Position numbers and translations under genes: made by a program
Source of the DNA: Caldanaerobius polysaccharolyticus DSM 13641
GTDB lineage: Bacteria > Bacillota > Thermoanaerobacteria > Thermoanaerobacterales > Caldanaerobiaceae
Direction of reading: 5' to 3'
NCBI RefSeq assembly: GCF_000427425.1
Contig: NZ_KE386495.1
Coordinates: 388,554-452,553, forward strand
DNA: 64,000 nucleotides
The notes under the pieces: generated by a model
Told to the model about the DNA's origin: nothing
Database searches by the model: none
The model's input: only the letters and a program-made list of their open reading frames with translations
Shown here: piece by piece, positions 39,940 to 46,764 of the stretch
Layout of the letters: each line of letters opens with the position of its first letter
How positions within the stretch are numbered: the stretch's first letter is position 1

Positions 39940-39968
39940 ATATTACCTCACTGTAGAAACATTTTCAA
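39940..39968 (-). promoter_or_regulatory. Promoter of the GH3/oligosaccharide transporter operon
   Basis: TTGAAA (39968-39963) and TAATAT (39945-39940) separated by 17 bp. The box and spacer start read TTGAAAATGTTT, also found at 46598-46626. Upstream, AAATT tracts begin at 39974, 39984, 39994 and 40005, about one per helical turn, then a long A/T run. The rest of the 39871-40136 gap holds a terminator. Confidence 0.72.
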
Positions 39969-40080
39969 AGTCCAAATTTGACTAAATTCAGCTAAATTCG
40001 CCGAAAATTCTCCGTTTTTTTTTTTTTCTGAATCTTTCTCATTCTTCCTCGTTTTTCCTTCCTTTATCATTCTCACACAT

Positions 40081-40120
40081 AAAAATATCAAAACCCCTGC
40101 TAGAAAAACAGGGGTTTTGA
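40081..40120 (-). terminator. Terminator of the GH2/sugar transporter operon
   Basis: TCAAAACCCCTG / CAGGGGTTTTGA, a perfect 12-bp stem with a 9-nt loop, followed on the minus strand by ATATTTTTATG. It is placed 17 bp after the GH2 stop. Confidence 0.9.
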
Positions 40121-40136
40121 TACGCGTTATACCGCA

Positions 40137-43100
40137 TCACAATATCTCAGGTATCTGCTTGCTCAAAGACATGGGGGTCCAGATAGACCTGGTAAAAGGC
40201 TTTACGCGCACACTAAAGCTGGTGTCTGCAGCTTTCAGTTGGTATTGAGGCAACGGTTCAGGCCCACAGCTGTTGCTGCCCAGACCTCCCTGCTGGTAAT
40301 CCATGTTCAACACGGTTTCACCAAGGCGCTTGAGCTCATAGGTGTGCTTCGCCTCGGTCAGATCTTCTGTGGAAAATTGCTGTACACTGACGTTCAATGT
40401 GGGCATACCCACTACCAGCAACCCATATCCCCTTATGTCCGTTACTGCAGCCCATCTGACATCGCATTTGTTCCCGAATTCCTGAGGCCTTACATAAGGC
40501 ACATACTGGTCCTCTACTGTTCCCTCGTAAACGCCCACAATAGCACTTTCTTTACGGTCGATATAATTCTCATGAGGCCCACGGCCATACCATGCAAACC
40601 TGTCAAATTGACCAGGCATTCTCATCTGAAGGCCTATACGAGGCAAATACGGCAGCTCTTTCAGCGGTTTAAGGTCTGTGGATATTATTACGTCTCCGCT
40701 GCCATATATGGTGTACGTAACCACAGCTCGAAAAGCCGGCGCCACAATATACGAACCCAATACAGATTGCACGCGTACCTGCACAACGCGGGATTGAGAT
40801 GTCAGCTGAATCTCCTCTATCCTGGGCACCAGCTTGTCAAGTCCCGCCTCCACCCATTTTTTAGCCTGATGCACGTCGTTATCCGTGGGTGCCCTCCACA
40901 CATTTACCTTTGGCCCTTTGCTCACCATAGGTATACCGTGGTACTTCAGAGACGATATCGTGCCTCTGTGCTTATCAAATACCAGCTCAAATTCTTCTCC
41001 TGTCACTTCCAGTTCTTTATCCGTTTCGCGTAATTTAAGCGGTGGCATGGATGATATCTTAACAGCCGGAACCTCTGGCACTGCCAATGGAATCTTAAAT
41101 TGGCTCCATCCCACCTGATGCCCTTTTGGCGCCCACATGGTAGCTTCTTTTAAATTAAAGCTTATATTGAGCCAGTATTCAACGCTAGGTTTGGGTTTAG
41201 GAAGAGCATAGGGAATGGTTATAACCCTTTCCTGAGCCGGCGGTACATCCAGCACAGGCAGCGTCCCCTGTTGTATCAGTTCATCGTCCCCCATGAGCGC
41301 CCAGCTTCCCTCTATATGCTCAAGGGACAAGAAGTCGTAACGGTTTACAATCTTCACCTGACCCTTCATGAGGTCTACAGGTAAAACCTGTACCGGTTCA
41401 ATGGCTTTCTTCAGCTCTATAACGCCAGGATACGGCTTTCGATCCGGGAACATAAGACCGTCTATGCAGAAATTGCCATCATTAGGCTTATCTCCAAAAT
41501 CCCCTCCATAGGCAAACCATTCTTCTCCAGATTCCGTTCTCTGCCGGATCCCATGGTCAACCCACTCCCATACGCATCCGCCCAACAACCGCGGGTATTT
41601 GTATATAGCATCCCAGTATTCCTTGAGGTTACCCGGTCCGTTTCCCATGGCATGGGCGTATTCGCACATAAAGAACGGGCGAGGATCGTCGGTCTTTTCT
41701 CCCTGTTCTATGAGGTAATCCAGCTTAGGATACATGACGCTTACGACGTCCATAACCGGAGAATCAAAAGCACCTTCATAATGGATTGGCCTCGTGTCAT
41801 CCACTGTCCTTATCCATTCAGCCATGGCATCGTGATTGGGACCATACCCTGATTCATTGCCCAGCGACCACATGATGACAGAAGGATGGTTTTTATCCCT
41901 GTACACCATTCGGCGGGCGCGGTCTATAAAAGCTTCTTTCCACGCTGGATCACACGCCAACTGGCTTACATTCCCCGTAAATGCAAAACCATGGGTTTCC
42001 AGATCCGTTTCATCGATCACATAAAGCCCGTATCTGTCACATAGATCCAGCCAGCGAGGATCATTGGGGTAATGAGAGGTCCTGACGGCGTTTATATTGT
42101 ATTGCTTCATAAGGGTTATGTCTTGAATCATAGACTCTATGGTAACCGAATACCCGAGATCAGGGTGGATATCATGCCTATTAACTCCTTTGAGTTTTAT
42201 AGGAACGCCGTTTAAAAGCAACCTGCCTTCTTTAATCTCTATTTTGCGGAATCCCACATTGAAGCTCTCCACTTCCTGAACTGTCCCATTATCGCCCTTT
42301 AAAATCACCAAAAGCGTGTAAACATTAGGAGTTTCCGCGGTCCACTTCCTGGGGTTTAATACCTCAAGAGCCACATTAAGCTCTTTTTCTTGCCCAGGGC
42401 TCAAAGACAACGTCTCATCGCAGGATTTTTCTGCAACCACCTCGCCGCTATCGTCCAACAGCGATATTTCTACGCGGTAACCGTCCTGGTTTTCCTCACC
42501 ATAATTTTTAATATTAATCTTTGCGCTCAACGTAGCATTGACATACTGCTGATCCAGATCAGTCCTCACGTGTACATCTCTGACGTGCACACAAGGCGTT
42601 GCAAACAGGTATACGTCCCTGAATATGCCGCTCAAACGCCATTTATCCTGGTCCTCCAGATAACTGCCATCAGACCACTGGTATACGCGAACAGCAATGG
42701 TATTTTCTCCAAGCTGGATAAAAGGCGTGATGTTAAATTCCGAAGGAAGATGGCTTCCCTTGCTATAACCCACCATTTTGCCGTTTATCCACACCACAAA
42801 CGCAGAATCCACCCCTTCAAACACCAAGAACACCTGTCTGCCTTTCCAGCTCTCAGGGATGACGAAACTCCTTTTATACGAGCCCACAGGGTTGTCATCA
42901 GGCACAAAGGGCGGATCTACAGGAAAAGGATAAGCTACATTGGTGTAATTGGGTCTGCCGTATCCTAGTATTTGCCAGTTGCTAGGAACCGGTATGGTAT
43001 CCCATTGTTCCACGCTATACGACTCCTGCTCGAAGCCCTCTGGAGCCTCTGCAGGCGATGGAGCGTAGTGAAATTTCCAGTTGCCGCTGAGCAACTTAAA

Positions 43101-45142: not shown

Positions 45143-45160
45143 CAAATCCAGCCTATGCCG

Positions 45161-46450
45161 TTATCTACCCGAGAAATACTGTTTCTTTATATTTTTCAGC
45201 GCATCCTGCCATGCCTTATCCGCAGCTTTATTCTGCGATTCTACCAATTTCAACTGCTCTGTGTAGAGCCCTCTTATACCCTCTGTATTAGGCCCGTAAT
45301 AGAATACAGGGATGTTCTTCGCAGCATCTGCAAAGACCCTGTTGGTCTCCTGCCCTCCAAAAAACGGCTCCTTTACGAATACGCTCTCATCGTCAAAAAC
45401 AGCTTTTGCTGAGGGGAAGAGGTTCATGGTCTTAAGCTGCCTCTTCTGGTTTTCAGCAGACATCATCCACTTAATCGCCTGCCATGCTTCCTGGGGGTGC
45501 TTGCTAGACGCAGAAATGGCTATAAAAGATCCACCGCTATTGCCAGGGCCACCTGGAGCCGGAGCTATACGCCATTTACCCGATGTATCAGGTGCAGCAT
45601 CCTCCAGAATCTGTTTCATCCACACAGCTCCTACAAAGGAAGCTACCTTACCCGTATTCATAGCGGCATTCCAGTCTGTAGTATAACGAGCTACATTAGC
45701 GCTGTAACCCAATTTACGGGCTTGTACTGCCATGTCAAATATGTCTTTTATCTCCTGCCTATCTCCTACAAAGTTGTTGTTGGTATCTAAAAACAGCGTG
45801 GTCTTCTGCTGAGTTGCATTTATAAATACATTGTCGCCTATATTGTCAAAGGCATATACGCCTATATTTTTAAGTTTTTGAGCTGCATCAAAGTAATCCT
45901 TCCACGTCTTTATAGTATTGGCTACCTGTTGAGGATCGGTAGGTAAACCCGCCTTCTGGAATAGATCTTCTCTGTAGAATAGCGCAGTAGGACCTGTATC
46001 CATAGGAAAAGCTATCATTGTCTTTTGATCTGGAGTGACTCCCATCTGCCACTTCCATTCGAAATACTGATCCTTGAGATCACCGGCGTTATAAGGTGGG
46101 GCAAGCAAGTTTACAAACTTGTCTTTGTACTGATAATAATCAGCTACGTTGGTGTTTATACAGACGATATCAGGCATGCCCGAGCCCGCTGCCATCGTAG
46201 TCTTCAGCTTCGCGTTGTAATCGCCACCGATTTTGGTAGCGTTTATCGTAATATTGGGGTATACCTTGCTCACATCTTTTATCAATTTGTCTTCCACAGA
46301 CCTGTTCCAGTACCACATAGTCAATGTGACACGTTCGCCCTTTTGAGACTTACCAGAAGATGAAGCCTGTTTATTACCGCCTGAGCATCCTGCCAAAAGG
46401 CTTATCGCTAACAAAAGCGACAGCGCAATTCCCCACACTTTCTTGCGCAT
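45161..46450 (-). CDS. Extracellular sugar-binding lipoprotein (ABC transporter)
   Basis: 429 residues. Lipoprotein signal MRKKVWGIALSLLLAISLLA with lipobox LAGC and lipidated Cys22, then a Gly/Ser/Lys linker and a family 1 binding-protein fold (LTMWYWNRSVEDKLI, WKDYFDAAQKL, SASSKHPQEAWQAIKWMM). First gene of the operon with two permeases and GH2 beta-galactosidase, so a beta-galactoside-containing oligosaccharide is the likely ligand. Confidence 0.92.
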   Translation of the reverse strand: MRKKVWGIALSLLLAISLLAGCSGGNKQASSSGKSQKGERVTLTMWYWNRSVEDKLIKDVSKVYPNITINATKIGGDYNAKLKTTMAAGSGMPDIVCINTNVADYYQYKDKFVNLLAPPYNAGDLKDQYFEWKWQMGVTPDQKTMIAFPMDTGPTALFYREDLFQKAGLPTDPQQVANTIKTWKDYFDAAQKLKNIGVYAFDNIGDNVFINATQQKTTLFLDTNNNFVGDRQEIKDIFDMAVQARKLGYSANVARYTTDWNAAMNTGKVASFVGAVWMKQILEDAAPDTSGKWRIAPAPGGPGNSGGSFIAISASSKHPQEAWQAIKWMMSAENQKRQLKTMNLFPSAKAVFDDESVFVKEPFFGGQETNRVFADAAKNIPVFYYGPNTEGIRGLYTEQLKLVESQNKAADKAWQDALKNIKKQYFSGR

Positions 46451-46597
46451 ACCTGAATTTTCCTCCCCTAAAATTAATTTTAAAAACCATTAGGAACACT
46501 ATACAGAAAAGCTATTTTCAGATAAGCAACACCCCCTTTATTTTTGCGACAAACGTTTTACAACTTTATTCAAATTTTTAATAAATCATCTACTATT

Positions 46598-46626
46598 ATT
46601 CTAGCTTAGTGCGAAAACATTTTCAA
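46598..46626 (-). promoter_or_regulatory. Promoter of the GH2/sugar transporter operon
   Basis: TTGAAA (46626-46621) and TAGAAT (46603-46598) separated by 17 bp; the shared TTGAAAATGTTT box recurs. AAATT-type tracts begin at 46632, 46642 and 46652, exactly 10 bp apart. AAAACATTTT on the plus strand (46614-46623) overlaps the -35 and resembles a degenerate CcpA/LacI-type site. The remainder of the 46451-47072 gap holds the candidate ORF at 46919 and otherwise only A/T-rich sequence. Confidence 0.72.
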
Positions 46627-46764
46627 AACTCAAATTTCATCAAATTTGACGAATATTCGCTGCTTTTTTTATCTTTTTTAAATATTTCTCGTGTTTTCTT
46701 ACGTTATCTCTATTTTTCTATGGTGATCACTTAAGCACATCTAGGATGGTGACTATAAGCGATT

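Follow-up and report, generated by a model that had tools for sequence, protein, structure and literature searches.

A predicted promoter module with phase-locked A/T tracts recurs before sugar-uptake operons of Caldanaerobius polysaccharolyticus

The analyses presented here concern a 64,000-nucleotide stretch of the Caldanaerobius polysaccharolyticus DSM 13641 genome (contig NZ_KE386495.1, positions 388,554–452,553; hereafter the window, in whose own numbering all positions are given), and within it two minus-strand operons for sugar uptake, each preceded by a predicted promoter carrying regularly spaced A/T tracts. We show that the two promoters are copies of a single module family of about 120 bp with some 30 copies in the genome. 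An earlier note, made from the letters of the window alone, had described a sequence common to the two promoters, 17-bp spacers and the positions of the tracts, all of which check, both promoters lying on the minus strand; it had also stated that the tracts recur every 10–11 bp, and here the regularity holds, but the step inside each of the two arrays is exactly 10 bp and not 10.5. As the note had also remarked, neither operon adjoins a regulator gene, the nearest LacI-family genes that we saw lying at 13937–14956 and 18102–19112. The locus comprises the following features.

33337–39876, minus strand: operon A, behind copy A, permease–permease–solute-binding protein–glycoside hydrolase family 3 (GH3), with genes for BPD_transp_1 (38911–39876), BPD_transp_1 (37963–38862), SBP_bac_1 (36214–37896) and GH3 with CBM6 (33337–36156), by Pfam
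39911–39929, minus strand: copy A, leader inverted repeat ACTTAATAAAGT, then a T-run; common to 13 copies
39940–40069, minus strand: copy A, promoter module in four-tract form (match of profile R1 at G000:C3:428493-428622, 70.8 bits)
39940–39945, minus strand: copy A, −10 TAATAT with a 17-bp spacer (promoter scan)
39954–39968, minus strand: copy A, −35 TTGAAA (39963–39968) within TTGAAAATGTTTCTA, which resembles a catabolite-responsive element (cre) (sequence, promoter scan, spacer conservation, pyrimidine–purine centre, creCD consensus)
39974–40009, minus strand: copy A, four phased A/T tracts in 10-bp steps, at 39974–39979, 39984–39989, 39994–39999 and 40004–40009 (AAAATT), one more than the common form
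40015–40027, minus strand: copy A, A13 run (T13 on the plus strand), of a length that varies across the family
40028–40069, minus strand: copy A, upstream conserved box in the GGAAGGAAAAACGAGGAAGAATGAGAAAGATTCAG form (alignment)
40085–40123, minus strand: 17-pair intrinsic terminator (prediction) at the end of the upstream GH2 operon, parting the two transcription units
40137–46450, minus strand: operon B, behind copy B, solute-binding protein–permease–permease–glycoside hydrolase family 2 (GH2), with genes for SBP_bac_8/1 (45161–46450), BPD_transp_1 (44130–45062), BPD_transp_1 (43269–44108) and GH2 beta-galactosidase (40137–43241), by Pfam
46598–46719, minus strand: copy B, promoter module in three-tract form (R1 match at G000:C3:435151-435272, 73.9 bits)
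46598–46603, minus strand: copy B, −10 TAGAAT with a 17-bp spacer (promoter scan)
46612–46626, minus strand: copy B, −35 TTGAAA (46621–46626) within cre-like TTGAAAATGTTTTCG (sequence, spacer conservation, creCD consensus, promoter scan)
46632–46657, minus strand: copy B, three phased tracts in 10-bp steps, AAATTT (46632–46637), AAATTT (46642–46647) and AATATT (46652–46657)
46664–46679, minus strand: copy B, interrupted A-rich run, placed like the A13 run of copy A (alignment)
46680–46719, minus strand: copy B, upstream conserved box GAAAAATAGAGATAACGTAAGAAAACACGAGAAATATT (alignment)

The earlier note had made its reading depend on the pattern recurring at other sugar-operon promoters and being conserved in relatives; many further copies were found in the same genome, and the module is present in a sister species. 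A genome search with the pattern TTGAAAATGTTT-N11-TATAAT and at most two mismatches gave 23 matches in the 2.5-Mb genome and none with a backward control pattern, one of the 23 (C3:843854) being a chance match with no element around it. Alignment of the flanks established an order conserved over about 120 bp, namely GAAAAATGGAGAGAAAATGAGAAAACGTGAGTAATATTCTG, an A-run, CGGCGAATATTCGGCGAATTTGACCAAATTTGGACT, TTGAAAATGTTTTTA, a variable half-spacer and the −10. Profile R1 has 32 matches at E ≤1e-3 in the genome and 14, three of them weak, in the sister species, the only other member of the genus that the analysis covered. The window copies had themselves gone into R1, and the search was therefore repeated with hidden Markov models (HMMs) from which they had been left out: in the window, the model from the sister species alone found these two sites and no others (copy B, 9.6e-22; copy A, 1.3e-14), as did the model from the other copies of the same genome (copy A, 1.2e-21; copy B, 1.7e-18), and a reversed HMM had no match in the window below E 0.7. 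A pattern of strict array plus −35 gave zero matches at up to three mismatches, probably because variable bases had been forced.

The first genes behind the copies serve carbohydrate uptake or use in nearly every case (SBP_bac_1, BPD_transp_1, RbsA-type ATPase, Peripla_BP_4, GH127, GH67, mannitol dehydrogenase), and in the sister species they are mainly SBP_bac_5, with a YesM-like kinase and a LacI gene besides. Of the 33 SBP_bac_1 (CUT1-type solute-binding-protein) genes, 19 lie behind an element on their own strand at a distance of up to 5 kb, compared with 1.06 such genes under random placement (maximum 6 in 2,000 trials, the placement having covered genic DNA too).

Tract centres fall at −8.5, −18.5 and −28.5 from the first −35 base, and among 33 scorable copies the anchor tract stands at 28.5 in 25, at 38.5 in seven and at 27.5 in one; the seven are those with a fourth tract, each exactly 10 bp longer, and the copy at 39940 is among them. 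The distance from the array over the A-run to the upstream box ranges from 26 to 45, with nearly every value represented and every integer from 31 to 36 seen. Considering that insertions in the array come only as +10 bp whereas the A-run gap is free, it is the array alone, and not the upstream box, that keeps a fixed phase with the promoter, and the phasing looks to be under selection. The A/T period peaks at 9.75–10 bp (z ~24 against dinucleotide shuffles, for pooled copies that are not independent). Curvature prediction, which the earlier note had recommended, placed the proximal 55 bp above shuffles in a wedge model (mean z −2.4 over 35 copies, beyond −1.64 in 24 of them; copy A −5.9, copy B −2.5). 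Within the three-tract form, conservation is 0.90 in the A/T columns of the array, 0.66 in its G/C columns and 0.52 in the second half of the spacer. Since a readout of the minor groove or of curvature predicts fixed A/T tracts, linkers of constant length and freer linker bases, this pattern speaks for an array that is curved or UP-element-like and held in phase, rather than for a repeat read base by base. The note had offered bending, an UP-like array or repeated contacts of one activator; phasing and predicted curvature are borne out to the extent given.

We suggest that in the shared TTGAAAATGTTTT / TTGAAAATGTTT element a −35 and a cre-like operator have been combined. T occupies spacer positions 9–11 in 34–35 of 35 copies, and 33 of the 35 have a pyrimidine–purine step (TG, CA, CG or TA) at the centre, with 20 distinct forms of the cre-like site counted. 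Sigma-A has no need of symmetry about such a centre, whereas a LacI-family operator requires it. Set against creCD, the CcpA consensus of C. difficile (RRGAAAANGTTTTCWW; PMC3510511), the module matches GAAAATGTTTT in full, followed by T for C and TT for RR, so that a single core base disagrees; the core GAAAANGTTTT is present in most copies, with the flanking RR absent (TT) and C usually T. Like creCD and the B. subtilis cre WTGNNARCGNWWWCAW (PMC3463425), it has, in most copies, the full GAAAANGTTTT core and a symmetric pyrimidine–purine centre placed over the promoter; unlike them, it is joined to the −35 throughout almost the whole family and usually carries T for C at its right end. At cre boxes that overlap a promoter, CcpA represses by interference with polymerase (PMC3463425); in Thermoanaerobacterium, CcpA has been characterized together with HPr and HPr kinase (PMC4634974). 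CcpA-like proteins occur in both of our species (339 and 351 bits, each under the curated cut-off of 442), and HPr kinase scores above its cut-off in both. As a marker, the B. subtilis-type cre was tried and set aside as uninformative (8 window matches at up to two mismatches, 4.3 expected); the clostridial consensus fits better.

Sites behind the −10 differ from one operon to another. AraR-like half-sites TACGTACA/TGTACGTA stand there in four copies, a likely arabinose sub-regulon, one of the four preceding a gene for GH127 beta-L-arabinofuranosidase; in these copies (L020, L023, L024 and L025) the sites form paired operators ATACGTACATTTT ... AAAATGTACGTATAC directly after the −10. A LacI-type TTGAAACGATT site is found in three copies, two of which make up the one orthologous pair, and in 13 copies the leader repeat ACTTAATAAAGT, followed by T's, lies at the predicted mRNA 5′ end, possibly as an operator, a pause site or an attenuator. 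Such operon-specific downstream sites suggest that the operons share one upstream engine while their specificity, set further down, can be exchanged. What goes beyond the earlier note is the family of about 30 members conserved over about 120 bp, the apparent −35/cre-like fusion and the putative interchangeable operators downstream.

Taken as a whole, we consider somewhat more likely than not a scheme in which an activating array of curved, UP-element-like DNA is opposed by CcpA at the −35, with interchangeable operators downstream. The three, sometimes four, tracts 10 bp apart at about −43.5, −53.5, −63.5 (and −73.5) would constitute the phase-locked array, to one face of which the C-terminal domains of the RNA polymerase alpha subunits (alpha-CTDs) may bind, possibly with wrapped upstream DNA, and this binding would offset weak −10 boxes. 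The TTGAAA −35 would at the same time form the left arm of the cre-like palindrome TTGAAAAYRTTTTNA, through which CcpA–HPr(Ser-P) would block the predicted promoter when a preferred sugar is present. Sugar-specific repressors would work just downstream through the AraR-like sites (4), TTGAAACGATT (3) or the leader repeat (13).

A 1999 study (EMBO J 18:3442) reportedly described phased A/T tracts upstream of one sigma-A-type promoter activated at low temperature; the tracts and the predicted curvature are alike, but that promoter is a single one, whereas the module serves a set of sugar-uptake promoters with a cre-like −35. UP elements have a proximal subsite at −45 to −37 and a distal one at −58 to −45 (PMC2613000), and the module resembles them in that A/T tracts adjoin the −35 on its upstream side at intervals of one turn; in nearly all copies, tract 1 (−43.5) falls in the proximal and tract 2 (−53.5) in the distal subsite. 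It differs in its three or four tracts, A-run and further box, and in its recurrence at some 30 promoters that share a functional class, and alpha-CTD binding is here putative. As at the T-tract rheostat of Helicobacter pylori sabA (PMC4081817), a homopolymer run of variable length lies near A-boxes upstream, where it may change axial alignment; the sabA run, however, sits between UP-like elements and core promoter, whereas that of the module is upstream of the phase-locked array, so that only the upstream box would shift.

Several points weigh against the scheme. In the right half of the cre-like site, T usually replaces the C of the cre consensus. The highest-scoring CcpA homologue falls under the curated ccpA cut-off (339 vs 442 bits), and a second LacI-family protein, encoded in the window, scores nearly as high at 328 bits. 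Of the linker columns within the array, some are no better conserved than the spacer, whereas others reach 0.75–0.86, and a C at −2 before the −35, present in 93% of copies, is without explanation. The upstream box, at about −60 to −95 from the −35, is conserved too, with conserved G residues and at variable distance; it fits a second protein-binding site better, UP elements needing no conservation over some 120 bp.

The factor that acts on the array would be either the alpha-CTD or a dedicated activator, and the latter gives the chief rival reading, a tentative one that we hold possible but rather unlikely: a global activator or nucleoid-type protein, encoded elsewhere and analogous in function to a catabolite activator, would oligomerize on array and upstream box, the array being its operator and not an UP element, and turn on sugar-uptake operons. 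Conservation out to about 95 bp upstream of the −35, G/C positions included (the GAGAAAACGTGAG box, the C at −2, a G after each tract), would suit it, as would the functional coherence of the target genes and the many weak −10 boxes (TATCCT, TAACAT, TAAAGT, TAGATT), such as activator-dependent promoters have. However, linker bases inside the array vary far more than the tracts do, an upstream box that is not phase-locked to the promoter would be unusual for a cooperative oligomer, and no candidate gene turned up, although no genome-wide search for one was made. More speculative again is a system at the level of the genus, in which a global activator, a Firmicute's functional counterpart of a catabolite activator, would read a phased operator of about 120 bp that was recruited time and again to sugar-uptake operons particular to the lineage, and would work against CcpA at one and the same promoter.

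Were the copies a dispersing promoter, mobile or gene-converted, they would be alike mainly through recent copying and their conservation would be little guide to mechanism. The same 120 bp or so does stand before non-homologous first genes, element-bearing operons of the two species are mostly non-orthologous with one clear pair, an isolated copy precedes an old yellow enzyme (OYE)-like oxidoreductase gene in another genus (G016), and the tree of copies is star-like and poorly supported with the two species intermixed, being compatible with one origin of the four-tract form as well as with several. Recent copies would, however, agree over the whole stretch, whereas pairwise identity drops from 0.97 in the −35 to 0.78 over the following nine bases and 0.40 over the remaining spacer, stands at 0.64 for the −10 and is 0.42–0.32 after it; the second spacer half and the region after the −10 are thus near background against 0.70–0.97 in the upstream parts, and flanks compared by eye have no sharp common ends, similarity fading at different points. 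We regard this reading as improbable; spread and selection can nevertheless both be true, the spread being old and selection having followed it. That the pattern arose by accident, or from the composition of an AT-rich genome in which A/T tracts are commonplace between genes, has next to no probability, given 23 forward and 0 backward matches, the empty reversed profile and the periodicity (z ~24, copies not independent), and we rejected it on the backward-pattern and reversed-profile controls. Mobile promoters, as far as two later papers describe them (Matus-Garcia 2012; van Passel 2014; via PMC8049555, PMC9208149), likewise place similar promoter-bearing intergenic sequence before non-homologous genes; the module differs from that description in that its targets share a function, its neutral parts have diverged and no sharp ends were seen by eye.

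Elsewhere in the class one clear isolated copy was found (G016, E 1.8e-10, before the OYE-like reductase gene), and otherwise weak sites; the upstream box searched alone in relatives gave matches outside the genus at background level. A wide distribution was considered and dropped, an exact 23-mer scan of contigs having given seven scattered matches in unrelated groups that we took as chance, with near relatives outside the collection. Genus g7 of the same class has five weak matches (L067, L114–L117), at least four of them orthologous and upstream of hsp20, with TTTTGAGCAAATTTGAnAATTGAAA and a GAGAAAGAGTGAGAAAAA repeat in common; a weak match in G018 (L105) lies upstream of a small bacteriocin-like protein with the double-glycine leader MNEFMELTEEDLMVVDGGG. 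An upstream extension AACGTTTGATATGGNAATAAAGRCATTTTAAACACATATAGG in many copies (L010, L015, L016, L025, L031, L096, L097, L098, L104), the isolated G016 copy included, could be an additional module or a second promoter, with TTGAYA about 17 bp before TAAACA. At L017 (G000:C1:4700-12500), two module copies and a permease gene stand in tandem with N runs and an inverted fragment, either a recent duplication or an assembly fault.

Within the window, the LacI-family gene at 13937–14956, that of the 328-bit protein, has a near-palindrome ATGTAAGCGGTTTCA directly upstream (14968–14983), probably for autoregulation. Divergent from copy B, a short plus-strand open reading frame MSFHDKFDMDTFERAAQDLNVVGGMTA (46920–47002) behind the ribosome-binding-site-like GAAGAGAGA resembles a double-glycine leader-type peptide, with a cre-like TGAAAACATTTTGC at about 46775. 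An Rfam search of 39700–47100, covering both promoters, matched no structured RNA family, and that reading was dropped.

Finally, it is rare for sequence as far as 100 bp upstream of bacterial promoters to be so strongly conserved or so often repeated, and about 30 related promoters, whose arrays differ by exactly one turn and whose upstream runs differ freely, let nature's own variants show what helical phase does. Should the modular reading hold, the copies would be ready-made promoter parts, probably for a thermophile, and one lineage would be reusing a promoter cassette to bring sugar transporters that it has newly gained under catabolite control.

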